Positions 6,648-37,223 of a stretch of 64,000 nucleotides of DNA are shown piece by piece. The DNA is from Tubiluchus corallicola (taxonomy: Eukaryota; Priapulida; Priapulimorpha; Priapulimorphida; Tubiluchidae). Every line of letters starts with the position of its first letter. The stretch's first letter is position 1. The position numbers and the translations under genes were made by a program. The notes below the pieces were generated by a model, which was not told where the DNA came from, made no database searches, and saw only the letters and a list, made by a program, of their open reading frames with translations. The stretch covers positions 372,001-436,000 of the forward strand of contig JAQGDQ010000114.1 of NCBI GenBank assembly GCA_030141605.1. The letters are read 5' to 3'.

Positions 6648-9600
6648 ATCTGCCATGAACTAATTATTACAGTAAAATGGGCAATAAGTTTAGCTGTGCA
6701 TGCACGCCATTATTGAGGCGACCCATTAAAGGAGAGTCACCTTGGCAAGCCTCGAAGAGAAGGGATGGACATTTGCTCAGGTTAGTGGTTTCGGAATGTA
6801 AATAGGTAATCGTGTGATCGGATTTTAGTATGTGTAATTGTACATGTATGAGTGGGTTTCATAGTCATGAATACAATCATTAAGTGGTCTAATAACCTTC
6901 AAATGCAGGTTAAAATGTCATTCCATTTATGCAAGAAATATGTATAAAATTGTGGAATCTGGATTGTTTTCGAATTTTTTTCATGTACATCCCTTTTATA
7001 CAGGATGATGTTTTTAACTAACTGTAACGGCCCTTAGTTAGTTGTGGTGGTGTAAAAATATTGTGATACATTTGTTGTTACAGTTATAATTCAGAATTAT
7101 TAGTTTCTTTTTATTTCCACGTTGTTTGAATTAGCTACATTGCCTGAATAAGAAATTCTTCATTGGCACGTTTTAATTATTGCTTCCATAGTTGATAATA
7201 CTTGAGACTACAATTAATGGGCCGAGACTTTATAAAAATTACTTAAGACATATAAATGTTAATGCCTGCAAGCGGCGTTTACTATACTAGCGTATGACTG
7301 CTGAAATACGGACGCTACGTTAATTTTGCTTGGCATTACCATTTAAATTATCCCACAGTCCCACATTGCCGCTTTATGCCGCCGTGATATGAAAAGCGTG
7401 GTCAGAATGCAAATTCTACGCACTGAGAATTTATCAAAAAGACGGTTCTCTGTAAATTTCACAATCTCTTTTTGAGAAAAACACAAATATAAGTCTTCTC
7501 AATTCAGTTCGCATCAAATTTTTATTCCGATTGCTCAGACGCTACCTATGAAGTACAAATACTAAAATGAAATAAAATACAATGTAATAAAAAATGACAA
7601 GATTATTTATTTCTCTGGTTAAGGCAGTTGCGTCAAGTGCTAAAGTGTTTAGGTGAAGTTTAAGTGATAATGGGCAGCTGTAACCGTGTGGTAATTTTGT
7701 CACAATTAATTTTTTGAATCACAATCACCAACAAAAAATTATTAGCTGAAACGAGTAGTTTTGTAATTTGTAGTTTGTGTACAATATTGGTTTTATTTTG
7801 TGTTTGCATTCTGTCAATCAATCGGTATTTTAACATCGCTGATCATACACTTTAATTCGCTACATCAACTCTTCATAATGCAGGCAGCGCATCGACTATT
7901 GTATGCACGTCCTATCTACATCCCATTCAGCAAATATTGATACGATTTATGAATTTTCTAATACGGCCAAACGACTTGCATTATGCGGGAGACCGATTGA
8001 AATCCAGTAATTTGCTTGCTTGCATTTTGTCGAGCAACGAGATCACCATCTGAAGATGACTTGGCTGTATTTGTTCCGTGTGAACAGTCTTGAGTTATCG
8101 ATTCGAAGCCACGACTGCTTGCAGTGGTGGCTTTGCTTATACGTATCGTATTGATTTTCCCCCGGTATAAAAGGGGCCATGCACTTCGTGTAACACTATA
8201 AACCACGCTTTGTATATCTATTATATCACGGAGTGAGACATCCGGCTGGTATAGTTGTCTGATATTGATAGGGACATCGTATAAGTGTTGTTCTGCAAGG
8301 TGCAATTTCCGTTCACGCTGTGCCACACTGCCAGTTGCTTGTCAATAGACACGTTTGTCTTCTTGCCTTTGATTTTTTTTCTAGAAATTCTTCGCGGAAT
8401 TAATTACATTTGTTCGAACTGGCTTAGAACCACTGGCTTGGAAAATCCGCTTGGCGAAATATTACAACACTTTTTTTCAATTTCTCGGCAGTGGATTGTC
8501 TACTAAAGTTATAGAGAGCATGATATAAATATTTCAGACAAAACATAAAATGTACCTTTAGAAAAGTAATTTATGAAGATTTTCTCTGATGATTATCTTC
8601 TGTTTACTGGTAACGCAGAATATGTGACCAAACAGTCCTAACAGGCAAACAGACTAATGGGCTGCAGAACAGATAGGGCTACTGGTTTAGCGATCTACTC
8701 TTGATCTGTAGTGCCATGTATGACTGTTTTATCTTATTTTTAGTTTTTAATTTAGCTTTAGTAGCATGCTAAAGTTATTCAGCGATTCATACTAAATATA
8801 AATTGCAATATTGCATATTACAAAATGGGTTTTTAGAAAATTACACGTATTCTGTCAGCTCTAGTGACCCTCCTCATATGATATGATTTCAAATATACTA
8901 GTTCTCACCAATAGTCAGGTATAGCATTGTTTTCCTTAGAAAATGTTTTATTGCGACTTTGTACTTCAGAGTGGATGTTGTTGTTGTAAACAGTTTCTTG
9001 TTTCATTTTACAGATTATGGGCTGAAGTATTTCGGGTTGTTGTAGAAGGCCAGCATTTGAAATGGGCGAGGGTTTCAGATGATCTTCTTCCTGTCAATAT
9101 AACTTGCGTTCAGGATACTCCTGACTGTATCTTCCATATAACTGCTTATAATTCACAAGTGGAAAAAGTACTGGATGTGTACCTTCTCCAGCCTGGTAAG
9201 TGCTGAGTACCTTCCTAGTAGTGTGTATATTCCACAGAATTTAAAAAGGAAATTACATAGAAGAAAGTCAAGTAAAAGGGTTGCTGAAGTCATACTGAAG
9301 GGCATTTGGACAGTTGATATTTTTTGTGTATTGCGTAGGGTTTTTGTCAATGTACTATAATAATTGTAATTGTAATACAGCTTGCATTAGCAGTACCGCT
9401 GTATAAAACTTGTAACTTTAAACTCCTATGCTGATAGTTAGGCCCAGCCATTTAAAGGTCATTTTAAAGGTGCTTTGAATAAAAAATTGAAGCACGTTCA
9501 GATACATTGCCTAAAGTTATAAAAATACACAGAGTATTTGTAGCACAATTCACTAACACAGCAAAATAAAAATTTCTTTATCTTGTCAGTAATAATATGT

Positions 9601-12600
9601 TTTTGGTAAACCAGTGTTGTTTTTGGTACACACTGGGGTGACCCAGTAACATTTCAACCCGTGAGCGTATTACCAATAGAGTAACTAGTGCTAAATTTTG
9701 AGGGTGCTAGATTTTAGGGGGCCAGTGTTAAAAAAAATTTATTGTCGAAATTGTATTTCCTGTCATATTCATATAGAGCGTGCAGTTGTGCAACCTCTTT
9801 AAATATAGATCTATGCAACTATATTTAATTAAGTATAACGGTACTAGATAATAGTACTAGTAATACACCACAGTACTGCAATTATTTTTGTATTGTGCTT
9901 CAGCTGTAAGCAGCCATAAATCCTCAATAACAATCTAACAAATTCACAGTAGACTGAATTATCAACTTCAATCATCATGTGAAGGCATCATGTGATACAT
10001 CCCTGGTTTTACCAGTTGGTGCAAACATTTTAAATTATTAAGAATTTTCTTTTCCTGTTACATAACTCATTCAAATCGCTAAGCGTAATACTAAATGATA
10101 TAGGGTATGTTTCTGTGGAAAGTTATTTGGCACATGCTTGAAATTCTCTTTTCTTTTTCTTCAAGGTCCTTGACTGTTATTTGCAGTTGTCTGTTTTTAA
10201 CACCATCTAACACCTCGGACTGCAAATCATAACTGAAACCTGGAAAAGGGAGAAACAAAATTAATTTATGATACTTATTTTTTGCTGTTAACTTTTAAAC
10301 CCTGGAGTTTGTGTTCAAATTTTTAGCAATCTAAAATTTTGAGAATTTTGGACCAAGGCTACGTTTACATTCTGACCTTGTTTTCTATTGTGAATGAAGT
10401 TTGTGTTTTTACTTTAACTGGAACCCAAAAAGCATTTCATCTAATCATTTTGCTTCCCTTTATGAAATATAATTTTTTCTCAAGACAGACTCGATCTGAG
10501 TTTCACATTGTTTTCATTAAAGTTTAATGATCGTTTAATGATTAAACCCTCAATTACTATAAATTTTACCATTCCTACATGCAGAACTGTTGATTATAAA
10601 TCCAGTTTTTCCATCAGGCTTCTTATTTGTGGAAGTCTACCAGAAACCTTTTTGTGAGAACTTAGATCAGTAACTGTTAGTTATAATTCTGCTTCTCTCA
10701 GTATATATTCATTTTTACTTTTCTCTTGTACCCCATTATTCGGAGTGCCATTTGTGTAAAAAATGGTATCTCTCTCGCTAGATATGATTTGAGAGATATA
10801 GAGACGTATAGTGCCATTGACGTATAAATTTTTTGTCAATTTTTTTATATCATCGTGAGTTAGTCAAGGAATGTGAACAGCTGGCCACCTAACCATTTAA
10901 ATGTAGAGGTGCTGTGTTCTATGTAAAAGGCTTTCTGCTCTTTGTATATGACTTCTCTTCATTAATGTTGAGTCCTCTGAGTGACTCCTCTTAGCGCTGT
11001 TTTGCGACTTATGTCAGGAATTATTATCACGGATCCTATTATCTCATAATGTAGCCTTCTCTGCTTAGAATGTTCTTATTCGAATTGTGGCACTTTCAGC
11101 TAGCAAAAGAAGATGAATTATTAAAGCTTTGTGGAAAATAAGCTTATGTCTAGAAGCAGCTATCCATTGTGGGATAAGGGCATTGGATATAACCACGCTG
11201 CCCTGTATAATCCTATTGGGTTGCTGAGGAAATGCGCTTAATTCTGAGTGCCTTGTTTTAAGCTTTTACATTAAATTTTAGTAAATTGGTAGTGTCAGCT
11301 ATTCTTATATTGCTAGTGATGACAGATTTTTAGGTTTGACCTTGTATTATTCAAAATTGCATTTGGTCAGTGGTCAGTGATTTAGTCTAGCTTCTCACTA
11401 CAGACTTGAATCCCTGTCCACATTGCTTGAGTCTGATACGTTAGCACTGGTGTAACTATACACCTCAATCGTTGAAGGAGTAAAGGGGGTTAGTTGTAAA
11501 GACGAGTACCTCCACAGTTGAAATTTATGCTCAGTAATAGACATTTCGTAATCTGACATTGACATCAAAGTAAAACACATGTATGCAAGAGTGAATGCTG
11601 AATTTAGAAGCTAAGAGTAGGTTACCTGGGCCTATTAACTGTTGCTTATAAGTCATAGATAATCTTTTTTGACCTAGTTTTTATTTTGTCATTTCTCAAA
11701 TTTTTAAAAAAAAAGCTATTGCAAAGATTGTAGAACTGGTGCATTTGCAGGCGTTTGAAATTTTACGTTTTGAAGATAGGGGCCCCTGGAGTCATTAAGG
11801 CAACTAAATTTCGCCATTGGTCGTTACTTTTCTTCATAAGAAAATGAAACTGAAACATAACTCCTGGTGGCATATATATATATATAGTATATATATAGAC
11901 ACACGATAATTAGGCCTATTTCTAACTAATTATTAATCTAACTAACTACAGTTAACAGCTGATATGTTGAGCTTTGACTTTGGATTTTTATTTGTACAAA
12001 GAACATTGCACTTGAGAAACATTAATATTTCTGGTATGATAGTATGATAACTTATGGGGCCGCATGGTAATAACATTATAAAATTCAGATACACATTTTG
12101 AGAACACTGTAAATTTTTAGCCCTCATTGAACAGTTAAGTTCTCAATCTATGAAATGGTGAACAGTCATGGAAAATCTCAACGTGGCACAAATAAAATTT
12201 AGTGCAAAATCTAAACACATTTGAGTTTCATGTCAGTATGTTTTTTAAGGTAAAGCCTTGCAAGAATTTGTGTTTCCAAGTGCTTTATTTCCATTTGAGT
12301 TCAATTCAGAATCTTTACGAATTGGACTCCAGTTTTGACTCAAATCCCTGAAAATTATAGAGGCTTTAATTACTTTAAATTCTCATGATTACAAATTGGT
12401 GATATATTAAGTGGCTTGTAAAACAAATATGTATTTCAGCCTATATGTTGAAAACTTTGCTATAATTTATTTTACGTTTTATTACTCATTGACTTTGTCT
12501 TGGCTTTCACAAGCTTTAAAATCTGCTATTTTGAATTCGCGAATTTGCATATTTGTCGTTAAATCTATCTTTACTGCTTTGCCTGTTTTAATGAGTTTGG

Positions 12601-15600
12601 CTATAAACCTCGTTAAGCTTGTCTTTCTTTATTTTAGACGACTACACTTAAAGAGTTTTCTCAAGTGCACCTATTTCTTCTCTGCACTCTTTTTCCCTTT
12701 TTTAGCTTTTCTCCTTTCCTTGCTTTTTCATCTCTCCTACTTCTTCCCTTTCATACTGTCTTTTTTGTTTTACTTTTACTCTGTATTCCTTTTAAAATTT
12801 TTAATTTTATTTTTCTCCATTTTTGATAAAACGAGAAGCATTATTTGCAATCTGCAATATCCATATGCATTTCTAAATTTTTACTATGATTATGTTTATA
12901 TTAAGTTGTGGAAAAGTAAACTGTTACCCTATTTAGCATTCGCCTTTATATTGGCAAGTTAGTAATTTATCTGCACATAACTGGCCATCTGACTGCTCCA
13001 GTAACACACTTGTACTGATATTAACTATTAATTTATATCTTACAAAACACTCTCTGGTTGTGTTTAATTTAAGGAGTTTTTATTCCCTCAGTGTATGACA
13101 TTTTCAGTTTTATCCCCTGGGCATTTATATCCACTTATATTGAATAGGCTTTCGATGCACTTTAAAATTTTCTACCTTGAACAATTAACATATTTAAAGT
13201 AACAGCTATTTTTTGTACAAGTTATCAACTTACATTCTGCTGTCAATTACAAAGTTAGAAATTAAAAAACTCAAAAAAATCTGCTAAAAGTCTAATTTAA
13301 AATGGCTTCATTATGTTAATGTTCGCGTTTTCTGCTGTTAGATGTAGTCCAACGTGCAAGGAAATGAAGTTATAATACTTGCTTTGCATATTTACATTCA
13401 GCTGTCCATGAAAGATAATTTGGCTTCATCACAAAAATTATTTTTATAGGTACTAAAGTTTGCCAAACTGCTGAGTGTTTTGTTTATTGGAGAGATGATC
13501 GTTTGAAGGTGACATGGGGTCTTAATTTTACATCTCCTATCGATGCTGCTCATTTTAGGGATACTTGCTCAGTAAGTCCACTTTAAAGTAGTGAGTAGCA
13601 AATAGACATTGCTATCGATATAATCATCTTTGCGTATGTATACGTTCTACTTGTATCTATTTGGAATGAGCTAGTTGTTTAAAATAACTGAATTTCTAAG
13701 CATGACTGTAGTAGCACTTGTGTAATATTTGAATTTACAATTCTTTAAATTGTTAACACTTGGCCAGGGTGATATCATGTTAAGGCACTTTGCAAAAAAC
13801 AAATTAAAAGCATTTCTGCAAGCAAATGCTCCAGTTGTCTTGCGTAGTCATAAAACCTTACCAATGTCTGATCTGAAAGAGTTTGAAGAGTAAATGATCT
13901 GTTGCTATATAATTAATTCAGCTTGGCTAAGTTTGTTTTTTAGTTTTGTTTTATTTTTAATTTTGCAGACAACAATACAGAGATTTGCGAGGCGGGCCTC
14001 ATCTGCAACATCACTGAAGATGGAACCTCCTAGCAAAGTACCTAAGTTTTTTCTTACTATACTATATCTAAATTACATTTTACTATATTTACATGATGTT
14101 TCAACTATTGTTATATAACCATAAGGGTGCGCACAAAAAAGATAGTATAAAGGCATATGCAGTCGATGAACAGCAATATTTTTATTAACACGTCATTGAT
14201 TTAGGTAAAGGTTGTTCAAATAAATATTTTCCTATTGTTTGGTTTGCCAATTGATTTTTTTCTTCATTTCTTCATTTTTGTGTTTGCTATTATTGAGTGT
14301 TTTCTGCAAAAGGGAGACTACTAATTTTCATAAGCCATGTTTTTGTACATAGCGTTTAAGAAAACCAGAAAAATTTGGAACATCATCTACCCCAAACTCT
14401 CCATCACATTGTGGTATGCATCATGGTGTCTATGACAACTGGGTATCTGAGAACACACCTCACATTGAAGTAACAACACCTACAACTGCTAGTAATTCAC
14501 CGATTAGATCAGCTACGATGGGTAACTTGAACAGTGCAACAAAATCAGCAGGTACGTTTAAAACTATATTAAGTTTTTTGCTTCTAATAGATTTTTTACT
14601 GTTATCCATGTTCTTTGTTCCATCACTTCGAACAAGTGCACACTTTTGTGCGTAATGGAAATGGAAAAGTATTAATTCTTAAATCCACACTGTGGCTAAA
14701 ACAAAATACCCTTTGAGAGATACCCTTGAGTAAGTCCTATGTACTTACCTTGCAAATGCATTTTATCCAAAGCATTCTCAAATCAATGAAACAATGGCAT
14801 TATGCATGGACTGATAAACTCATAAAAAGAACAGAAACTTGTACAACTGAATCGTGGTTTAATGACCTAAGCCAAAACTTACCCATTCTTCTTGAAACCA
14901 TTTTATAGGAAAATGTTTCATGGATTAAATTTTTTCTAAGGAATTACTTTCAACTCATAATAATCAAACTAGGTTTATCACTAGAGCATGTTATAGATAG
15001 TTTGTAATGTGCCATTTGAACAAGGGCATGATTTAATTTCTTTTCACTTTTTTGGCAGTTCCTGAAATAGCAAAGGTGAAATCTGCCACTCTTCCATGCC
15101 ACCTACAATCTTTCTCAAATGAAAGTATGCAACAGCATCATAGATCATCTTATGAAACAATGGCTGCAGGCAAATTGCCATTATGCGGTACATTTGCACC
15201 ACACCCTTGCATTAAGCCAACACAAGGAATGAGTCAATCAACTCGACCAATAACGATGCAACAAAGGCCAGCAAGTGCCATGGGAGGCGCGCAGAGGATA
15301 ACACCATTATCACTGAATCAGCCCTGGCAGTCGGCATCCAATCTAAGTCAAATGCAGCGGTCGGTCTCTGCACTAGGACATGAGAAATGTATTGCAATTA
15401 ATCAGTCCTTGCGCCGTGGAACATCATTAGACCAATCCAATATACAAAACTCAGCAAAACCAACTAGACCTTCATCTGCAATGAGTTATCCTATATCCAT
15501 AGTAAAACAACCAGGTAAATTTTAAGTGCTTTTCTCCAGCAAATTATTACACTGATGTAAAATTCCTTTTATTTGAACTTATACCAGAAAAAGATCGATA

Positions 15601-27600: not shown

Positions 27601-30600
27601 TAGTGTAAATTTTCTGTAAACTTTTACGACTGAATTACATATTCATCTCTGTTTAAGTTAATTTTCTCTAGAACATTTCATGAACCTGTTTGAAAAGAAT
27701 TAATTGTCAGGTAGCCATTTTTCCAGTTATTAGTATTTCAGTTTTGTGTAAGTAATCTTTCACATTGTCTACATGCTTAGGTAATGTTTTAGAAGTATGC
27801 GTTTTTAATGGATGCTCCTGAATACTCAGTAAATTCTCCTTTCCAATCCCAATGAGGTGGAAAAACAAACATAGCTCTACTACTCACACTTATAGAATTG
27901 TGATATGAATTATTGAAATAATAATAAAAATTGCAACTCCAAATCAATTTTTATTATGTTCAATCTAGTAAAGCTGTTGTTAAATTAATAATTTAACTTA
28001 GCTCTTTTCAGTTTTCATTAAATGCATTTTTGTGGCAGAATTTAATAGAATAATGGGTAATAAGATTTTATTTTTGCAAGTTGAGGATTATTCCTAAAAA
28101 TGATTGGCGAGTTGCCAAATTATTCTTTTCCTTTCTAGTTGAACCTTACTTCATCTTATAGCTTTTCATATTGTAATTGTATAATATTGCAGTGTGTGAG
28201 AACAGTAACTGTAAAAAATATATTATATTGTTGTTGAAGGATATGTTTTTAAATCATTTTCAAGTACAACCTCATAACTATTCCTTTATAAAATCTCCGT
28301 AGTCTGTTTTTCTTTTGCCGCAGATTGTGGACCTTAGCCTTGGAGACATGCTTTGTTATGGATGCATTGAATGGGTTAATGTTTTGGACTTTATTGGAAA
28401 GATGAAGAAGGGTTTAGATCTGTTTACCATTTGCTTTGTTTTTCGGTCGGCTCTAGTCATCCTTTGCAAGGAAAAGAACAAGCAGAAGAAGAAAATAATG
28501 GTGAGCTGTTTGACAATTGTGAACCTTTTTATTTTTTTGTCTTACCTAAGTTTTCTCCTATTTTCCCCATGATTTTTATAGTAAACTAATAAACTTTTGT
28601 TGAAGTTTGGGTAATAGATGTCTTTGTATGTTTTTGCCGTAAAATGAGTATTTTTAAATTGTGTAGGAATTAAATTAAATGTGTTTACCCAATTACAGTA
28701 ATGGGTATGGCACATAAAACAAAAAAGTAGCTTAGTTATTTTTTAACAAAACGATCAAGCTAGAATTCTGTATTGAATCAGAAACCCCAGAAGACATTTT
28801 TAGGGCAACTCAAACTCTTAAGGATAATTTCTTTTGCAGCTTTTTTGGCAATCTCTGTCGGATACATTGCAGTTTGTGTCACCCCTTTATAAACTGTACA
28901 ATGGGATGCTTTTCAACTATATGTGTTACACCAAAAACTGCTAGAATTACCATTACAATAAGTGATATAGTAAACCAAACAGTTTATTTCTGTAGTCGAA
29001 TACTTGTGTAATAAGTTTTTTTTTGTTTATTTTTTTTGCAGGGTCCTAGTAAAGTTGCTCCTGTAGATGCTGATGTCATCCGGTATCAAGTGATGATTCC
29101 TGTGAAAGAAATTGAGGTTCGGAGTCGTTCGTACGACGACATCGATTCAGCTTATTACTGGGATTTGGTTCACAAGGAATCTGAAATGCAAGATAGACCT
29201 GAGAGAGTGTACCAGTTTGCGAACAGGTATTTCTGCTTAAGCCTAATATTAGAGAATGATTATACATTCCGTAGTGAAATACTAATATTTCTGACATACT
29301 AATGCTTGTCTCTAGAACAATTTGTGTTTTATAAAATTCTGTAAATTCAAAATTTGATGTGGATTGCACGAATACTGAGCATCTGGTTTTTTGAACAGCT
29401 GTGCTGAAGAAAGAGACATGTTTGTTAAGTCAGTGAGAGACATTATCAGAGAGACGGTTCGCAGGATGTCACCACCAAAGCAACCTCTTTTGACTTCTGC
29501 AGTGCAGAAGCAGTTACAACAGGTTTTGGAAAGGAGAGCAGAAGCTCTGAGGGAAGGTTTTAAAACGTCACACAGCAAACCTTTCATTCCACATCCAAGA
29601 GAACCATTAGACAGACCTGCATCCGAATGTCTAGGTTTGAAATTAACAATTAGATTTTTGAATTTTTGTTTATTACGGAATTTTTTACGGGGTTTCGAAA
29701 TCAAAACAGCCCTGTTTTACACAACAAATTATTGTAACTATTTATATCTTTCTTTATGCAGTAGCGACATTTACCTTTACAAGGGAGTACAAACAATTAG
29801 AAAACTTTAGACTTTTCTCCTTGCATTGCTTACAAAAGATTAATTACCGCTTCAGTTGCTTTTTTTATTGGCATTTCAGTTCAAAATGTCAATGTTTTTG
29901 AAGCAAAAACTGCAAACAGTAATTCAACGCAAAGTTGCAGTGATCTTTCTAACATACCCGAACCGCCTCACGGTGAAAAAGAGCAAATAATTGTTGTTCA
30001 GAAAACACCTGATAGTAACATTGAAAGGTCTTATGAACGTAAGTATTGCACATTTTTGATAATATTTGCAACTGATTCAACTTGTTTTTAGTTTTATTGC
30101 CTTAGGTTGTAAATTTATATAAATCATATACATATAGTATAAGTTATATTTATACCTTTTATGCATACTGATTTGGCATTAAATAAGACGTTCAAGCTGT
30201 TTTTTATTTGGTTAGTGTATCTACCATTAATAGAGGAAAAAGTACTTAAATATTTATCCTAAATTTGCAGCTGATTTAATTCACCTTTAATTGCCTTTGA
30301 GACATTTCAAGCTGCTTTGTTTATTTTATTAATCTACATACATGACTAGAGGAGTGCTTAATATTTGTTGTTTCACATTCCTAGCTTTAATTTAGCATTT
30401 TTGTAAACCTTGGTAAAATAATTGATGGAACGTTAACTTTGTTTTTGCTATATCGTGCTGGTCCTTTGCGAAACAGGGTACCTGTAAGAGAGGAGAAAGG
30501 TATTTCCAGTCGCGACTAATAATTCACATACTCGGGCATTATATGAAAATGACCTAACTTTTTGGGATGGCAGAGAAAACACTAATAATTATGTAACAGT

Positions 30601-31972
30601 AACAGAAAGCACAAATGAATCCCACAGCTGTGGTTGAGTAATAATTCTTACTGAATATTTGTGTTTGCTACAGTAAGCTCCACATGTGGCTTTTTATTAT
30701 ACTGACACAGATGTTCACTGTCCAGTGTAATGTGTTCTTATCAGAGTCCATGGATGTTTTATTTCAGCTGATAGAATTCAACCAACATTTACCACATTCA
30801 GAGGTCTGCAATCTGATGACCACACAGGCAGTAGAGTAAGCAAGTTCAGCAGCAGTGTACCAGGTCCTCCAGTGTGGGGTGGAGATTGCATTGTTGTACA
30901 AAGTGGTACACATCAGGTTCAGCGTGTGCATGCAGTACGACCAACTTTACATCCTGCAAATATGACAACCAGTCACTCTTATCAACACAAACAAGGTAAC
31001 ACCACATGAGTTTCATGAAATTTATGAGTTTAGATGCTTTTTTAGTTATAAAGCTCAAAGCTTTTAAAACCGTGAATTTATTTGAGATATGCCTTGCCTT
31101 GCTCATTTTTTTCATATTAAAATTAAAAGTGCCCATGTATCATTTTAGGTAGTGGATTGCAGTACAATCATTCTTCAGCTGTAGAAAAATCTAGTAGGGA
31201 ACTGTCGAGTGTCTTTGCTTCCTCACAACCATTATCTTCAACATCTGATGATAATCTGCCCGTTCCACCACAGCGACTTAGCAGTTTTGTACAAATTGCT
31301 GGTCCTGCAGGAAAACAATCAGATTGCCAACCACAACCGGAGGCCACCTGTAAGCAACAGGATTATCAGCAGGTACCTAGCAAAGCCCAGCAATGCAGTG
31401 ACATGATGACAACTAGTGCTGATCGAACAAAGATGCATGTTGTACATAGTAATAGAACAGACACACCGCCTGCTGATCCTCAACAGTCAAATAAAATTAC
31501 TCGATCAAATATTATTCCGATTCAATTGTCAAACCTCACTTGTGATCATGAAGAGCATAATCCTTCGCCATATTGCCTGCCCCACCATGACATGGTGCCT
31601 CGCCCACAAAGTGTTAGTCTTCCAATGAGGCATCCAGTCAGTCTTGACATGGACAATTTTATGCGCAGTGGCAGTTCAACCAGCCTTTACGGCATCCCAG
31701 GTCAAGCAAAGCTGCCCGGGTCAAGCGCATTGATGACAAAATCCCCAAGACCAGAGAAAGAGAAAAAGCATGTGCAGATTGCACCTGGCACCCTAGTAAA
31801 ACTTTTACATTCCAGTCATTCACCTGCCGAGTATTCCACTCCACCTGAGCCTGTAAGCTCACCCGTATGGAAGCCCCGAACTCCTGTGAATTCTCCTTCT
31901 GAGCCTCCAAAAAAGTCTCCTATTTTACAGGTGCCTGATTCAAATCATACTTCTTTTCCCAGTGGTTCTTGA
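6648..31972 (+). CDS. sif: Still life/TIAM-family Rac GEF, complete 28-coding-exon gene
   Basis: Multidomain Dbl-family exchange factor expected to load GTP on Rac at membranes and drive actin remodelling (known for TIAM1/2 and Drosophila Sif). Coding starts at ATG 6677; a likely 5'-UTR splice acceptor ends at 6647. The 28 exons, listed below, join in phase to 6312 nt (2103 residues plus stop). Domains: G2 myristoylation/Cys palmitoylation-type N-terminus; WH1/EVH1-like about 35-150; Ser-rich linker 160-690; PH about 698-818; CC-Ex about 820-960; RBD about 985-1066; PDZ about 1078-1170; DH about 1283-1487; PH about 1500-1640; disordered tail. The WH1 domain and N-terminus match the Sif form, not vertebrate TIAM1, whose N-terminus differs. 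Introns not listed separately are mostly 120-750 bp (the one between exons 18 and 19 is 534 bp), and I saw nothing else in them. Exon borders are inferred; no transcript data were available. Confidence 0.95.
6677..6780 (+). CDS. sif: sif exon 1: start codon and lipidation N-terminus
   Basis: Encodes [13 protein letters not shown] through GHLLR (residues 1-35, ends in phase 2, donor GTTAGT). G2 with S6 fits the N-myristoylation consensus, and C7/C9 are candidate palmitoylation sites. Drosophila Sif starts almost identically, which fixes this ATG. Confidence 0.93.
6781..9013. other. sif intron 1 (2.2 kb)
   Basis: AT-rich intron. The 7958-8326 stretch is less AT-rich and has a 122-codon open frame on the - strand. 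It lacks recognised motifs and is probably an old repeat. Nothing else was seen. Confidence 0.5.
9014..9195 (+). CDS. sif: sif exon 2: first half of WH1/EVH1-like domain
   Basis: Residues 35-96: [20 protein letters not shown], then [20 protein letters not shown] and [17 protein letters not shown]. Close to Drosophila Sif over its full length. Acceptor TTTTACAG, donor GTAAGT, phase 2 in and phase 1 out. Confidence 0.95.
9196..13449. other. sif intron 2 (4.3 kb)
   Basis: Largest intron of the gene. It holds a short (TA)n run at 11871-11895 and a pyrimidine-rich stretch at about 12660-12830. The latter yields a 183-codon low-complexity hydrophobic open frame (12411-12962), which is not a gene. 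No other feature was recognised. Confidence 0.5.
13450..13571 (+). CDS. sif: sif exon 3: second half of WH1/EVH1-like domain
   Basis: Residues 96-136: [16 protein letters not shown], then [20 protein letters not shown]. This closes the WH1-like fold and matches Sif ([18 protein letters not shown]). Acceptor TTTATAG, perfect donor GTAAGT, ends in phase 0. Confidence 0.93.
13969..14037 (+). CDS. sif: sif exon 4: basic segment after WH1
   Basis: Twenty-three codons, [20 protein letters not shown] then PSK. RRAS is a basophilic-kinase-type site. Phase 0 on both sides, so skipping it would keep the frame. The donor is the weak GTACCT. Confidence 0.85.
14353..14551 (+). CDS. sif: sif exon 5: linker
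   Basis: Residues 160-226, Ser/Thr/Pro-rich ([19 protein letters not shown] and further). No domain. Enters in phase 0, leaves in phase 1, donor GTACGT. Confidence 0.85.
15059..15514 (+). CDS. sif: sif exon 6: disordered linker
   Basis: Residues 226-378, rich in Ser, Gln and Pro with repeated RPxSAM-type pieces ([18 protein letters not shown]), which look like phosphosite-bearing disorder. Phase 1 on both sides. Acceptor TTTGGCAG, donor GTAAAT. Confidence 0.88.
16050..16906 (+). CDS. sif: sif exon 7: long linker exon
   Basis: Residues 378-663. Contains a possible helical segment ([20 protein letters not shown]), acidic stretches and a Ser-rich end ([16 protein letters not shown]). No known domain. 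Starts after a T-rich acceptor in phase 1 and ends in phase 0 at donor GTATGT. Confidence 0.9.
17704..17828 (+). CDS. sif: sif exon 8: acidic run leading into PH
   Basis: Residues 664-705: [19 protein letters not shown] through SGVVRKSG. The end aligns with the TIAM1 segment just before its PH domain (TVRKAG). Joining across GG|GTGTGC to the next exon restores G-W-L-S in phase 2. Reading on instead gives Cys-Ala-stop at 17836. Confidence 0.85.
18041..18314 (+). CDS. sif: sif exon 9: N-terminal PH domain
   Basis: Residues 705-796: [16 protein letters not shown], then [19 protein letters not shown], then [20 protein letters not shown] and Q. This is the TIAM PHn domain, which in family members binds phosphoinositides and helps membrane targeting. 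Ends in phase 0. Confidence 0.96.
19167..19310 (+). CDS. sif: sif exon 10: PH C-terminal helix and start of coiled coil
   Basis: Residues 797-844: [20 protein letters not shown] contains the invariant PH Trp, followed by [17 protein letters not shown] of the CC region. Phase 0 on both sides. Confidence 0.95.
19410..19556 (+). mobile_element. tRNA-derived SINE, copy A (in sif intron 10)
   Basis: GATTGGTCTAAGGCAATTGC resembles a Pol III A box, and GATTCAAATCC 30-odd bases later resembles a B box. The tail (CAACTTTTTTCACATTT and GAGTTTGTACCATCCTTAAT) is shared with the copy at 33112-33262. Borders are approximate. Confidence 0.6.
19690..19872 (+). CDS. sif: sif exon 11: CC-Ex subdomain
   Basis: Residues 845-905: [14 protein letters not shown], then [20 protein letters not shown] and [15 protein letters not shown]. 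Matches the TIAM coiled-coil/extension that with PHn forms the PHCCEx module used for membrane and adaptor binding. Phase 0 on both sides. Confidence 0.96.
19873..21365. other. sif intron 11 (1.5 kb)
   Basis: AT-rich. A short inverted pair TGCCAGTTG/CAACTGGCA flanks 20053-20097, and a related CCAGTTGCT occurs near 20662. I found no target duplication and call nothing here. Confidence 0.4.
21366..21541 (+). CDS. sif: sif exon 12: end of Ex region, basic patch
   Basis: Residues 906-964: [20 protein letters not shown] aligns with the TIAM motif GRLGIFSVSSFHALVAAR. A basic stretch [13 protein letters not shown] follows. Ends in phase 2. Confidence 0.93.
21542..22572. other. sif intron 12 (1.0 kb)
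   Basis: No coding sequence recognised. A block at about 22090-22290 is somewhat less AT-rich and may be an old repeat, but I cannot place it. Confidence 0.35.
22573..22720 (+). CDS. sif: sif exon 13: segment before RBD
   Basis: Residues 964-1013: [20 protein letters not shown] through [10 protein letters not shown]. The last part begins the Ras-binding domain strand. Acceptor TTCTACAG, ends in phase 0. Confidence 0.85.
22930..23094 (+). CDS. sif: sif exon 14: Ras-binding domain
   Basis: Residues 1014-1068: [20 protein letters not shown], then [20 protein letters not shown] and [11 protein letters not shown]. Ubiquitin-like RBD as in TIAM (HSAHYLRLKF, YVPQPEEDIYELL). Phase 0 on both sides. 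Confidence 0.93.
23217..23397 (+). CDS. sif: sif exon 15: first half of PDZ
   Basis: Residues 1069-1129. The carboxylate-binding loop reads [11 protein letters not shown] (GLGF-type SFGF). A nearer alternative acceptor at 23196 (TTGCAG) would add 21 nt in frame and put LLSCFSQ-like residues in; I prefer TTTCTCAG ending at 23216, which keeps EKL-VYD as in TIAM. Confidence 0.88.
23920..24204 (+). CDS. sif: sif exon 16: second half of PDZ and linker
   Basis: Residues 1129-1224: [20 protein letters not shown], then SLCLTFRGY closes the PDZ domain, followed by a disordered linker with [15 protein letters not shown]. Phase 1 on both sides. Confidence 0.93.
24461..24508. repeat. (GA)n microsatellite in sif intron 16
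   Basis: Almost pure GA dinucleotide run, with one GT interruption near 24485. The Ser/Leu-rich open frames it creates on the opposite strand are artefacts. Confidence 0.97.
24727..24797 (+). CDS. sif: sif exon 17: short linker exon
   Basis: Residues 1224-1247, [20 protein letters not shown] through LLQ. Bounded by ATTCAG and GTAAGG. It fits the phase 1 to phase 0 transition needed between exons 16 and 18, but sequence similarity alone would not reveal it. Confidence 0.7.
25306..25464 (+). CDS. sif: sif exon 18: start of DH domain
   Basis: Residues 1248-1300. After a Ser-rich lead comes [18 protein letters not shown], the CR1 helix of the RhoGEF domain, with the Glu that contacts the GTPase switch region in Dbl proteins. 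Ends in phase 0. Confidence 0.95.
25999..26193 (+). CDS. sif: sif exon 19: DH domain
   Basis: Residues 1301-1365: [19 protein letters not shown], then [20 protein letters not shown], then [11 protein letters not shown]1-CR2 of the exchange domain. Phase 0 on both sides. Confidence 0.96.
26364..26472 (+). CDS. sif: sif exon 20: DH domain
   Basis: Residues 1366-1402: [20 protein letters not shown] then [16 protein letters not shown], nearly identical to the TIAM1 segment [19 protein letters not shown]. Ends in phase 1. Confidence 0.96.
26608..26822 (+). repeat. Upstream copy of a 215-bp tandem duplication (pseudo-exon 21)
   Basis: Both copies open with GATTAAAAGGATTAGACATT, at 26608 and at 26823. 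The unit covers the 3' part of intron 20, the acceptor, and the first 133 nt of exon 21. This upstream copy has a good acceptor (CTCTTAG ending at 26688), but its exon part has TAA at 26739-26741, a second stop soon after, K-to-N and other changes, and no donor. It is dead. Confidence 0.93.
26689..26822 (+). pseudogene. Dead partial copy of sif exon 21
   Basis: Reads [17 protein letters not shown] then stop, against [19 protein letters not shown] in the live exon. Translation in the splice phase meets two stops before the truncated end at the duplication breakpoint. Confidence 0.93.
26823..27036 (+). repeat. Downstream copy of the 215-bp tandem duplication
   Basis: Contains the end of intron 20 and the intact first 133 nt of exon 21. 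By eye it is roughly 90% identical to the upstream copy. Confidence 0.93.
26904..27083 (+). CDS. sif: sif exon 21: DH core, CR3
   Basis: Residues 1402-1462: [20 protein letters not shown], then [20 protein letters not shown] and [37 protein letters not shown] is the CR3 signature of RhoGEFs. Phase 1 on both sides, donor GTAAGA. The copy 215 bp upstream is broken; this one is intact. Confidence 0.97.
27449..27567 (+). CDS. sif: sif exon 22: last DH helix
   Basis: Residues 1462-1501: [20 protein letters not shown] then [19 protein letters not shown]. The TIAM equivalent is MNKVASHINEMQKIHEEFG. Leads into the DH-PH hinge. Ends in phase 0. Confidence 0.96.
28324..28500 (+). CDS. sif: sif exon 23: C-terminal PH, first strands
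   Basis: Residues 1502-1560: [20 protein letters not shown], then [20 protein letters not shown] and KKKIM. Equivalent to the TIAM PHc start (ADLSMGDLLLH). Phase 0 on both sides, donor GTGAGC. Confidence 0.95.
29042..29226 (+). CDS. sif: sif exon 24: C-terminal PH, middle
   Basis: Residues 1561-1622: [20 protein letters not shown] then [24 protein letters not shown]1 has HMIPTEALQVR and KSESEGRPERVFHLC at the same place. Ends in phase 2. Confidence 0.95.
29399..29634 (+). CDS. sif: sif exon 25: PH C-terminal helix and tail
   Basis: Residues 1622-1701: [20 protein letters not shown] closes the PH domain. A tail follows with helix-prone [19 protein letters not shown] and then [14 protein letters not shown]. 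Ends in phase 1 at the weak donor GTTTGA. Confidence 0.9.
29880..30038 (+). CDS. sif: sif exon 26: tail
   Basis: Residues 1701-1754, no domain ([20 protein letters not shown] and further). Phase 1 on both sides, acceptor CATTTCAG, donor GTAAGT. Assigned by splice sites and phase. Confidence 0.8.
30768..30995 (+). CDS. sif: sif exon 27: tail
   Basis: Residues 1754-1830 ([20 protein letters not shown], then [19 protein letters not shown]). Disordered tail, phase 1 on both sides. Preceded by a 729-bp intron in which I see nothing. Confidence 0.82.
31149..31972 (+). CDS. sif: sif exon 28: terminal coding exon
   Basis: Residues 1830-2103 and TGA at 31970-31972. Ser/Pro-rich with SH3-type proline clusters ([26 protein letters not shown]). 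The tail is not conserved enough for me to compare with other species, but it is open throughout and in phase. Confidence 0.9.
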
Positions 31973-32770
31973 TAAGTATTCTTAATTAACTTGCTGTAAA
32001 TGATGATACAAACTTAAAAAGCTGTAAAAGCTGCTATATCAAATATAGTTCTCTAAATAGTTTTGTTGCATCATTAATTTTGTTTTAGCTAAATAACAAC
32101 ATTAAGGTGTTTCTACTAAGAAGTGATAGTTGCCAAAAATGTTTTCTGTACTTCTTTACTTTTACAGGGATTGCATATATGTGAATATGATGTAAGATGC
32201 ATATGTACAAATTATTTCATACTATGCATAGTTTGTGCGCATACCATGCAAATGTTAAATAATCATGTAGTATTTACTTTTTCCATTATTTACTGGAGAA
32301 AAGTAAATAATTTTTAAATTTTGCGTAAGTTTTTAAGGTGAGTGTTTTCTCCAACCAAAACTTGGATTTTATGCTAGGATGTAAAATTGCAGTATTATTT
32401 GCTAACTGTAATATGGTATATCTAGTAGAAAAGTAATGATGGAGATGTTGTGAACTTTAGTGAGAATAACGATATTATTATGAGCTTCTTGTGGAAGTCT
32501 GTGTACAATTTCTATATTGAAGAAAGCGCAAATAAAATCTTATCTAATCTGATGTAATAATTGTCTTTTATATGGAGCTTTGGTTGCCCTTTAATAAATT
32601 GCGATAGATCTAGTAATAATTATTATCTTCCAGCTATACCTATCACTGTTGTAACACGTTTCTAATGTTACTATATTAGTAATTTCTATACAAGTGATTG
32701 CTTATTGTCACAGCTGTTTATTGTGTCTCTAGGTGTATTGTAGCACATTACAAGCAATAAATAAAGTTTC
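31973..32770 (+). other. Probable sif 3' UTR
   Basis: Poly(A)-signal hexamers AATAAA occur at 32531 and in AATAAATAAAG near 32757-32767, downstream of the stop with no gene between. Which one is used cannot be told. Confidence 0.5.
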
Positions 32771-33111
32771 TTGGCTAATTCTTTATGTAGGTTAATAGCA
32801 ATATATTACTTGATATTATTGTGCTGCATTTAGGAACACGTACCAATGTTTGCTTGTTATCATTTGTTATACCTGACCTGTTAAGCGATGTTGTATGTTG
32901 TTTCATTTATTTTTGATCTTCGTTTTATAATTTTGTTATGACAGTTTATAAAAAGACCAATGTTGAAAAAACAAACAAGTAGTCGTAATTAAATCAATGA
33001 ATGTTTTAGCCCCGTTGTTGCTCAGAGGCAAAACTTTAAGCATGGTGCAACCCCACAATTAATGTGATGAACTTTGGACTGCTTTGATCACTGGGGTAAT
33101 ATATTGGTTTA

Positions 33112-33262
33112 GCAGTTCAAGGCATTTCCCTTATAAAGAGCAGGTTCCTGGGTCAAGTCCAGCCTGTATAGCAACTTTTTCACATTTCCTGTCTATTAAA
33201 TTATAAAGATTTAATTAATTGTGGATTTGTACCTTCATTAATAATGATCCTAATATGAAGAG
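33112..33262 (+). mobile_element. tRNA-derived SINE, copy B
   Basis: TTGGTTTAGCAGTTCAAGGC (A-box-like) followed by GGTTCCTGGGTCAAGTCC (B-box-like), then the same tail words as copy A: CAACTTTTTCACATTT and GGATTTGTACCTTCATTAAT. Just upstream, TTGCTCAGAGGCAAAAC at about 33016 may be part of a longer or dimeric head. Confidence 0.65.
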
Positions 33263-35502
33263 TCTAAAAATTAATTTTAACTTATTTAGAGATGACTACC
33301 TGCTTTGTTTTTCTTTGAGCATTGGTCTTTTTATGGATCTCAACTTAAGATTTCCTTCATGGCAGATTCAGAAACACAAAAAGGCAGCATAGAATAAGGT
33401 TGATTTATATTTTATGGGGTGTGCCAAATATACCAATTTCATTGATGTGCGAGTCTAATGCATAAAGAAAGAAACTGATGTTTTTTTATATTAGGGGCCA
33501 CTAGTTTGTGTTGGTTAGTTGGTTTTAAAAGTTTGCCTAAAATTTGCATCATGTTATTAAGCCATTTATACGAATGTTTATGAGCATGAGTAGCGAGCTT
33601 AATACATTGTTAGCCTAGCAATTTTAAATTTCTAAGCGATGCAATTTCACCGGCCAATTTAAAGTTATCATATTTTTAGAAATGATAATACTCTTAGTTC
33701 ATATGTATATTTATTCTGCTTAGGTATATCCTTATACTTTCTAGGAAATTAATCTTTTATCTCATAAAGTGCAAAAGTGCAGCAATTTTGCATTATGTAT
33801 TTAGCTCTAAGTTTACTGTAAAAGTTGCCAATATAATTACCTGTACATGTGTAATTGTGCACCACCGTGATGTTATTGTTTGAAGTGAATCTTCTTGCGG
33901 TAAATGTCCCTGTTAAGTATTTAACTAGCTCGTTTATTTGAAAGGGTACCATGTTTATAGCAAACTAAAGATTTTAACATACAAAAGTTGTTATTTGTAA
34001 TCATAAATGTAAACACAGAATAATTTTGTTTGTGTTGGCATTTTAGCAAATTAACGGACGTACGTTACTCTGATAAAAACAGGAAATTATAAAGTTTAAA
34101 ATGCCTTTCTAATAATAGATATAGCAGTGTATATAATAGTGAATTATTAAGATTCTGCATATAGCAAAATCTTAGTGTTTACGTGTTGTTTTTCTTTTTT
34201 GAAATATGATTTAATCTTAATTGCCAAACGTCTAAATGCTTGTAGTTCAGTTTCAAATGACATCACAAAAAGCCTTTAAAGTTTGCGTACATCAAACGTG
34301 TTATGCCTTATATTTTCAAAGTATTTATCGGTATTTTGTAGGCTTAGTGTGCAAAACAGTATATGTTCACGTTGCTTGGAAGTGGCCTAATTAGGTTGTA
34401 GCTTTTGCTAAGCTGGAAAGCAAGCTTTTCATAGACTTTTTATATCGCTTTTTGATTATCTTCTTATTTAATATTTGAGTTAAATTGTATTACGTCGTGC
34501 TATACTGTAGACTTTTATCTGTGAACGAAGTGATTGCAATTGCTAAAGAATTATTTTACATTTACTGTTTAAAATGCAAGAATTTTGTAACAAGGAAGCA
34601 AGTTAGTTAAGTTATAAAACTGATATCAATATTAGTTGATGATAATATTTGTTTAAAACTTCACTAACATGTAACAGTAACAGTGACAATTAAAAATGTA
34701 ACAGTAACGCAATCTTTGCCTTTGTTAAAGCTTGCTTATAGTTGTTAACTAAGTAATGATATATATATATAGTTCATAATTAATATGGCATAATGTTACT
34801 GTTCATTTATTATTACTTAGCTGTTAGTAGCTAAGTAAGTAGGTACCTAAGAACCAGGCATGAAATGCTTATGTGTTTTTGATTCCTGATTCTATGCTGG
34901 TTGTAAAGTTGTATTTATTACTTTTGGTGACAAATTGAAAATACGTAATTCTTATGAATGAAAAGAATTTAAGGTGAATTTGGGATTTTGTCATATTCTT
35001 CTTCTAGTAAAGAAAATAAGCAGTTACTATGACAAATCAAAATCGCATAATCACATAAAAAGCGCATTCGTGCTTGTTGAATGTTAAACCAATATAATGC
35101 ATTAAATTAAAATTAAATGACTAAAATGTACATGATTTTATACGTCTTAATCTTGCACGTTTATGAATCTCTACAAATTCCTAACTGTACATGCATGGGT
35201 AGGTGATGTTAAGGGCCCTTCGTTAATTATACATGTATGAAGGGATTTTGGGTTCGTATATATTTTTGTGTTGCACGTATGCATGGTTATGTTAATAGCT
35301 GCATGTGTTTTCTATACTTGTAATATAATTAATAGCGTGCATATGTACTCCAAATTAGTATAGTGCATTTCACTTTTAATGCGTCATCAATCCTGTTGAA
35401 AGTGACAAATGGAAAAAAATACTCACAAAGCGTCGGTAAAAATGGCACTTGAAGTTCTAAGTAATAATTTGCAACTAAAAAATAAGTCAGAGTACTTAAT
35501 AG

Positions 35503-35507
35503 TAATA

Positions 35508-35537
<30 letters not shown>
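35503..35537. repeat. (TAA)n microsatellite
   Basis: About eleven TAA units with one interruption. Confidence 0.95.
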
Positions 35538-35538
<1 letters not shown>

Positions 35539-36170
35539 TGTGTCACACTTTACCACCGTACAACTGCGACGCTGTTTCTTTTACATGATTATTTATTGTA
35601 CCAGCTTGAAGAAATAACTATGATTTCGTACGTACGAGTACCGACGTCATTGGAAGTCTCCACGCCTCCGTTAATTGCGACTAAAAAGAGTTGCCTTCGA
35701 CAGATAAAAAGAGAGTACTTAACAAGTTCAACAATTACTAGTAGGATTTTGCTCCCAAACAGTTAACGACTTGACATGCTATCAAATTTGCGAAGTAACA
35801 GTTTAAAACAGTTGTGTCATAATTTGTAAGAAAATGATAATTACTAAAACTGTACCAAAGAGCGAATTAAAACAAATACACATACGTATTTTTATTAATT
35901 TACTATTCGGCAAGCTTGTTGTTATGACAAAGGTATCAAAACTTATGATAACTTCGTGTTGTATAGTGGATGTATACTTATATAAACCAGTAGTCTATGT
36001 CCTGTATCATTTTTTCATTGCAGAAGAAATTGTGAGAACAAATTAAATATTTTAGAGTCCTGTTAACTGCTGATACAAACTGGAGACTCTCTGCATTAAT
36101 GAACATCATAGGACTACATGTAGGCTTATTGTTATTAGTACAATTTTTAGGCTTATTTTTAATAATGAAG

Positions 36171-36464
36171 TTTATTAGTGACGTCCAATAAATTTAACAA
36201 GCACAACATTACAAGAAGTTATAAACTAGCGACGTATATCCAGTCTGAGCAAAACGATGTATCACAATAGCAGCTAGAGTTGCAAGAAATTACTACTGAA
36301 GTTATATAGATACAACATTATAGCAGCTATGTCTCTAGCATTTAATATATGTTACTACTTATACGTTATATACATTTAAATGTCAAAGAAATAAAAATCG
36401 TACCTTCGGTAAATAGGCTTATGTACACATACAAAAATAATATATAAAAATAAATGCGTAAAAA
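36171..36464 (-). other. Probable Olig 3' UTR
   Basis: From the stop codon to an AATAAA read on the - strand (TTTATT at 36171-36176 on +). No other feature. Confidence 0.45.
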
Positions 36465-37223
36465 TCACTTTGGTAATGGAGAGTGTTGAAATTTGGATAA
36501 GCATGTTGGATAAGGCACTGTACGTGTGCACTGAGTACAAGCACAGGGAAGTGGCCACCGACTGTACCCCTCAACACCCATGTGGAAATTGTGTGGAACT
36601 GTTGGTAATTTCGGTATCTCATCCTTCAAATGGCTGTGAGGGGATAGCGCCTCGGGAGAAGGATGTTGTCGCAAGGCTGGAAGACGAGGGGTAGATGAAG
36701 TAGGTAGACGCGGAAGTGGACTAGTAGTTGAGGGTGTCACAGTGCACAGAGATGTCCTCACTCTGTTAGTTATTGGGTGACTTTGATAAACATCACTAAC
36801 CAAACGTTTCATTTCCTCTAGCGAGCTGGACAACATCAGAATGTAGTTCCTTGCCAGCAACAACGTTGCGATTTTGGATAGTTTTCGAACAGAGGGACCA
36901 TTAGCGTAGGGCATCACCTCTCGAAGTCCATCCAGAGCGGAATTCAGGTCATGCATTCTCTTCCTTTCTCTACTGTTGATCTTTAGCCTCAGGTCTTGCT
37001 GTTCTTCTTCGCTCAGGTCCCTTGTGGACTTCAGTGAGTTCTTGCGCGCTGCAGCCGCCAGCTTAACGTACGGTTCAATGTCATGGTCCTTGAAGCCCAT
37101 CGATTTCAGATTCTGTCGAGAGAACTTGTCCCTGCTCATCTCACTGTCATCTGTTGAACAGCTATTGCAGTCGCCATCATCTGTAACGTTAATCAGTTGT
37201 TCTGGAGTTTGTTCTGATGCCAT
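36465..37223 (-). CDS. Olig: Olig-family bHLH transcription factor
   Basis: Intronless, 252 residues, start ATG at 37223 (MASEQTPEQ). A TTG 21 nt upstream keeps the frame open but is not a start. The bHLH spans about residues 79-140: [20 protein letters not shown], then [20 protein letters not shown], then [20 protein letters not shown], nearly identical to vertebrate Olig2 ([17 protein letters not shown]). NSRERxRMHDLN binds E-box DNA, and the Olig group usually represses transcription in neural/glial progenitors. A second Olig hallmark lies near the C-terminus, residues 223-232 ([10 protein letters not shown]), equivalent to Olig2 WGGMPCPCSMC. Between them is a Pro/Ser-rich linker. Vertebrate Olig genes are also intronless. 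A poly(A) hexamer lies at 36176-36171. Which Olig paralogue is closest cannot be told. Confidence 0.95.

Follow-up and report, generated by a model that had tools for sequence, protein, structure and literature searches.

The window analysed here is a 64-kb stretch of the Tubiluchus corallicola genome; it lies in a contig (C1886) of 608,008 bp, of which positions 282001-526000 (244 of 608 kb) were surveyed. It holds a TIAM/still life (sif) gene and, directly beside it on the opposite strand, an Olig-type bHLH gene. In window coordinates, the features are as follows:

6677..31972, + strand: TIAM/still life (sif) gene, 29-exon spliced model, 2,176 aa
6677..6780, + strand: TIAM exon 1; the protein begins MGNKFSC, possibly a site of N-myristoylation
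9014..13575, + strand: TIAM exons 2-3, WH1 domain, flanking the longest intron
18041..19872, + strand: TIAM exons 9-11, N-terminal PH and CC-Ex domain (model, Pfam, PDB)
22573..24204, + strand: TIAM exons 14-17, Ras-binding and PDZ region, both below the Pfam cut-off
25319..29226, + strand: TIAM exons 18-25, catalytic DH and second PH (model, Pfam, PDB)
31973..36464, no strand: convergent intergenic stretch, 4,492 bp
36465..37223, - strand: Olig-type bHLH gene, single exon, 252 aa
37224..57936, no strand: no identified gene from Olig to CCDC149, 20.7 kb, on the 5′ side of Olig
57937..59457, + strand: CCDC149 (next gene), uninterrupted frame, start approximate

The TIAM model was anchored by hand on open frames and runs from an ATG at 6677 to a stop codon at 31970-31972 (2,177 letters with the stop); its 29 exons are phase-consistent, with a single terminal stop. 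The introns sum to 18.8 kb, the longest (9196-13449) being 4,254 bp. Several splice choices are weak (e.g. the exon 3 donor; exons 4, 24 and 25 are uncertain), and the exact protein is therefore provisional. Pfam searches with pieces of the model returned the domain order WH1, PH, CC-Ex, RBD, PDZ, DH, PH. The WH1 domain (E=3e-7; 30.7 bits, cut-off 22.4) precedes the PHn-CC-Ex module of TIAM/sif Rac exchange factors (PH, E=4e-13; Tiam_CC_Ex, E=8e-28); RBD and PDZ follow in the expected order, each below its cut-off (25.5 bits versus 25.7, and 19.6 versus 23.2 respectively), and the DH domain is accompanied by the TIAM-type second PH (RhoGEF, E=1e-40; PH_Tiam1, E=3e-20). In the PDB, the N-terminal PH exon matched TIAM1 (3a8n, 4e-23) and TIAM2 (3a8p, 5e-21), while the DH-PH piece matched TIAM1 at 2e-89 (1foe), the next best match being at 6e-21. 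An N-terminal WH1 domain is typical of invertebrate Sif, and the MGNKFSC N-terminus resembles that of Drosophila Sif. The gene is apparently an ordinary, intact and complete member of the sif type. TIAM proteins are Rac exchange factors and, judging from the family, this should be the role of the gene described here. Within it, 26597-26821 and 26815-27036 form a tandem duplication (∼221 bp, 91.6% identical) that spans most of one DH exon plus its acceptor; in the first copy the exon frame is interrupted by two stop codons, as would be expected of a decayed pseudo-exon.

On the minus strand, the Olig frame extends from an ATG at 37223 to a stop codon ending at 36465. It encodes a bHLH domain (Pfam HLH, E=1e-15), and the three PDB matches of the protein are NeuroD1, Twist1 and TAL1. 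Compared by eye with OLIG and Beta3/BHLHE22 sequences, the bHLH domain probably reads as OLIG. A search of the genome with the protein gave 13 matches, the next best being 56% identical over query residues 66-167 (102 residues) and scoring equally on two contigs, C1198 and C2055; the copy on C1198 bears residues that we take to be those of Beta3/BHLHE22. Because this next relative is only 56% identical and Beta3-like, we count one Olig-type gene. That the gene beside TIAM is itself Beta3 was rejected as improbable, given the separate Beta3-like gene (again judged by eye). No relatives of Olig were found in viral and prokaryote contigs. Judging from its family, Olig should be a bHLH regulator of neural cells; the family is central to motor neurons and oligodendrocytes.

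TIAM and Olig are convergent, lying tail to tail with their stop codons 4,492 bp apart. No other gene was seen between them, and no ORF of at least 90 aa lies wholly inside 31973-36464. A MITE-like element occupies about 32948-33334 of this stretch; its 35-nt inverted ends are 80% complementary, and its inner part has many genomic relatives at 69-79% identity. Genome-wide, the PH_Tiam1 domain (PF23014) gave two matches, both to exons of the gene at 6677..31972. By this diagnostic second PH domain, only one TIAM locus is matched in the genome, and a second locus that would blur the pairing was rejected, the PF23014 matches being confined to one place. A sequence-only reading of the window had named the two genes, placed them tail to tail with about 4.5 kb between their stops and called them single copies. 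The names are borne out by the domain, PDB and HLH matches and the layout by the measured 4,492 bp; the copy numbers hold as one TIAM locus by PF23014 and one Olig-type gene plus a more distant Beta3-like relative.

Beyond Olig lies CCDC149 (PF09789, E=9e-110 on the frame 57901-59457), and the 20.7 kb between the two, on the 5′ side of Olig and away from TIAM, are the larger of the stretches beside Olig in which its regulatory elements might lie. The genes identified on the contig are a UBASH3 pair, HSP70, a Spec3-family gene, TIAM, Olig, CCDC149, Prospero and a PPP2R3-like gene. The UBASH3 pair consists of two tandem UBASH3-like genes with long open frames on the minus strand (C1886:282.7-289.5 kb). 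The Prospero exon, located at 475 kb via a sequence motif, carries a homeo-prospero domain (3e-27), and two frames upstream of it, which have no Pfam match, are taken as its earlier exons; the PPP2R3-like gene is so called from a weak similarity to the PP2A B′′ subunit (E=0.007). There are several more coding-like frames; one of them, near 492-495 kb, may resemble ANKEF1, with no decisive Pfam match. Of the identified neighbours, only UBASH3A is known to be on human chromosome 21, at 21q22.3 and not 21q22.1, and the neighbours form no obvious 21q22.1/6q set. Further uninterrupted large frames (a RhoGEF frame of 1724 aa; CCDC149) hint at many intronless genes in this genome. The window also contains a full-length 5S rRNA match at 2530-2637 on the minus strand (72.7 bits), beyond which an Rfam search at gathering thresholds found nothing in the window, and a reverse-transcriptase fragment at 516-830.

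For comparison with other animals, human TIAM2 lies at 6q25, roughly 17 Mb from OLIG3; the 6q duplicates resemble the Tubiluchus pair in sharing one arm and differ from it in distance. Human TIAM1 and OLIG2 are transcribed divergently, an orientation that differs from that seen here, and GRIK, BACH, MAP3K7, RWDD2, SCAF, SYNJ and IFNGR are families common to 21q and 6q. In Drosophila, sif and Oli are on different chromosomes, as are tiam-1 and hlh-17 of C. elegans. A 2.78-Mb duplication at 21q22.11 takes in TIAM1 and OLIG2/OLIG1 (PMC5102301), OLIG3 is placed at 6q23 (PMC5520018), and a bovine map of the 21q22 counterpart is indexed for TIAM1, OLIG2 and synteny (PMC2447486). A gene list for 21q21.3-q22.13 runs from TIAM1 to OLIG2 through SOD1, SCAF4, HUNK, MIS18A, MRAP, URB1, EVA1C, TCP10L, CFAP298, SYNJ1, PAXBP1 and C21orf62 (PMC12652779); these are 12 named protein-coding genes by our own reading of the list, with presumed non-coding, LOC and read-through entries left out. 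Human 21q22.11 thus resembles Tubiluchus in carrying the same two families on one arm, within a 2.78-Mb segment (PMC5102301), whereas the genes that are direct neighbours in Tubiluchus have those 12 between them in human, where conserved adjacency accordingly fails (PMC12652779). Among the titles and abstract openings listed in searches of the openly licensed PMC literature, none reports the TIAM-OLIG pair outside mammals, and neither name occurs in the main text of two microsynteny papers (PMC8851819, PMC5429095).

The sequence-only reading had named both human linkages and proposed that they predate the vertebrate genome duplications. The literature supports the first point for TIAM1 with OLIG2/OLIG1 at 21q22.11 and for OLIG3 at 6q23; the second is partly supported by the documented 21q22.11 linkage. 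The adjacency itself has not been kept in human. If the 6q genes are linked as stated, the vertebrate data alone date the linkage to before the vertebrate duplications, and to this vertebrate linkage the Tubiluchus window adds an invertebrate observation.

We searched the Tubiluchus genome exon by exon, a procedure that can miss matches, for five families from the human TIAM1-OLIG2 interval: CFAP298 and the Pfam families Syja_N, CID, Npa1 and GCFC, which we take to stand for SYNJ1, SCAF4, URB1 and PAXBP1 respectively. Syja_N, CID and GCFC are multi-gene families and were counted at the family level, not per orthologue. Syja_N gave nine matches (on C1810, C1483, C1925 and C175), CID eight (C2265, C2286, C4, C719 and C19), CFAP298 three (all on C409), GCFC five (C1839 and C408) and Npa1/URB1 a single weak one (C2331). 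In this search none of the five was found on the 608-kb contig of TIAM and Olig, and no contig was common to any two of them. Because the contig amounts to 0.6 Mb of 343.5 Mb, so that few matches would be expected, this result weighs little against a shared ancestral chromosome; it weighs more against a preserved block, there being no compact 21q22.1-like block around TIAM-Olig. A wider 21q22.1 block on the contig was rejected on the same count of zero out of five.

ISL-SCAPER served as a positive control for kept linkage. SCAPER_N was matched on contig C1023 at 262 kb and a homeobox on the same contig at 142 kb, the latter among 118 homeobox matches listed (150 of 186 candidates scored). By eye this homeobox is Islet, and two frames upstream of it encode LIM domains; the Islet-like LIM-homeobox gene and SCAPER thus occupy C1023:132-263 kb, 119 kb apart. 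As described in PMC5429095, the Isl-Scaper pair is conserved in animals, though not in Nematostella and C. elegans, and has predicted enhancer-like elements in the Scaper introns. The likeness to TIAM-OLIG is that a developmental regulator goes with a larger intron-rich gene, both of them on C1023 in Tubiluchus; the difference is that Isl-Scaper is seen across animals, with chromatin evidence from a sponge (PMC5429095), whereas TIAM-OLIG is drawn here from the sequence of one genome. The control concerns a shared contig and not adjacency, and the comparison covers a single animal genome. With ISL and SCAPER on one contig, this genome can evidently preserve old linkages. Of the 118 listed homeobox places 20 were fetched, and 19 of these 20 gave a readable homeodomain; by eye, Hox-type homeoboxes were named twice on C1190 and three times on C1217, the others being alone among the places fetched. 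The posterior Hox types and the Prospero exon look lophotrochozoan-like. On C2085 an NK4-like homeobox is accompanied by two almost identical Msx-like ones, and C2308 carries a further Msx-like homeobox together with an Lbx-like one (all names by eye); these are possibly what remains of an NK cluster in which Msx was duplicated.

How, then, did the two genes come to adjoin? With moderate confidence, we favour the reading that TIAM and OLIG were on one chromosome in the bilaterian ancestor, a chromosome that we infer, and that their adjacency here is a local accident. The vertebrate genome duplications would have copied the linked pair to 21q22 and 6q, and shuffling of genes within the chromosome would have left the two adjoining in Tubiluchus and 12 genes apart in human; no shared function or regulation would be needed for this layout. 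Ancestral linkage is favoured because the human linkage is documented on 21q and, as far as OLIG3 is concerned, on 6q, and because a linked pair is likelier to adjoin. On an ancestral chromosome of an assumed ∼1,000 genes the chance of adjacency is ∼1 in 500, against ∼1 in 10,000 for unlinked genes, so that with these assumed gene numbers a shared chromosome makes chance adjacency ∼20 times likelier. The gene identities, the one TIAM locus, the human linkage and the retained ISL-SCAPER and Hox groupings all speak for a shared chromosome. Against it stand the zero count for the five interval families, neighbours that are not the 21q22.1/6q set and genes that are unlinked in fly and worm.

The same unfavourable observations suit a coincidence peculiar to this lineage, in which TIAM and OLIG came from different ancestral chromosomes and were recently joined here, the human linkage being unrelated. 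The different chromosomes of the two genes in Drosophila and C. elegans, the other identified neighbours (not known from 21q22.1/6q) and the lack of matches to all five interval families on the contig fit this account, as does the fact that the finding was chosen after the fact. Yet a given unlinked pair adjoins rarely: for the named pair the chance is ∼1e-4, assuming about 20,000 genes, and for any Olig neighbour from the ∼8 families common to 21q22 and 6q it is ∼8e-4, both figures being post hoc and ignoring the number of windows surveyed. Both human pairs are, moreover, linked. We regard coincidence as unlikely.

An ancient microsynteny held by regulation would have TIAM as a bystander whose introns or 3′ flank contain Olig enhancers, the genes having been adjacent since the bilaterian ancestor. 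That the two genes adjoin directly, in a genome where ISL and SCAPER have likewise stayed on one contig, would suit it, as would the nature of Olig, a small gene with one exon whose family consists of developmental regulators, and the human 6q pair, documented for OLIG3. The orientation, convergent here and divergent in human, does not. Nor does the space available: the larger stretch with no identified gene is on the other side of Olig, 20.7 kb against 18.8 kb of TIAM introns. Olig enhancers could lie in the TIAM introns or in the 20.7 kb of 5′ space, and the measurements do not favour TIAM at all. Preserved adjacency is disfavoured because 12 genes intervene in human, because the orientation differs there and because the two genes are on separate chromosomes in Drosophila and C. 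elegans. Human TIAM1 is still linked to OLIG2/1 (PMC5102301) and ISL-SCAPER offers a precedent in which enhancer-like elements are predicted within the introns of the bystander (PMC5429095), but 12 genes split TIAM1 from OLIG2, so that adjacency was not kept there (PMC12652779), and the main texts of two microsynteny studies name neither TIAM nor OLIG (PMC8851819, PMC5429095). We consider regulatory preservation distinctly unlikely. Its boldest version, in which the two genes already adjoined in the bilaterian ancestor and TIAM contained Olig enhancers, the block being intact here and broken but still linked on 21q and 6q, seems to us improbable.

That the contig fuses two unrelated pieces between TIAM and Olig is highly improbable: the assembly does have redundant-looking contigs and contigs with inverted match pairs, and a 5.6-kb stretch across the junction occurs only once in the genome (40 of 391 candidates scored), with no second haplotype or copy to confirm the join, but the sequence is free of gaps and has no long self-match near the junction. 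No N letters occur in the 64-kb window or in C1886:322001-486000. Comparison of the surveyed 244 kb (C1886:282001-526000) with itself gave 18 off-diagonal matches; no match was both 400 bp or longer and 90% or more identical, none reached 1,000 bp, and none ended within 403-410 kb, the span that holds the junction. Among the matches listed, the intergenic repeats share 69-79% identity over at most ∼230 bp, or 93-95% over 41 bp, and they are poor substrates for misjoining. An assembly join, named beforehand as what would overturn the adjacency, is thus unlikely on inspection, with no gap, fold-back or long repeat near the junction. Elsewhere in the assembly, 13 contigs (among them C457, C628 and C2254) matched one RhoGEF frame with identical score, and in three of the 13 the match had the same coordinate; inverted match pairs occurred on the single contigs C175, C1977, C19 and C2015, which suggests redundant and fold-back contigs.

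The adjacency of TIAM and Olig is currently a single observation in a single genome. It would belong among old gene linkages; as a conserved adjacency, which is the stricter class, it does not hold in human. Found in an invertebrate, it hints at, without proving, a chromosome that TIAM and OLIG shared in early animals. Should the linkage be ancestral, the two genes would be a marker pair for reconstructing the chromosome behind parts of human 21q22 and 6q, and the locus would be a candidate for an ancient regulatory landscape of Olig.
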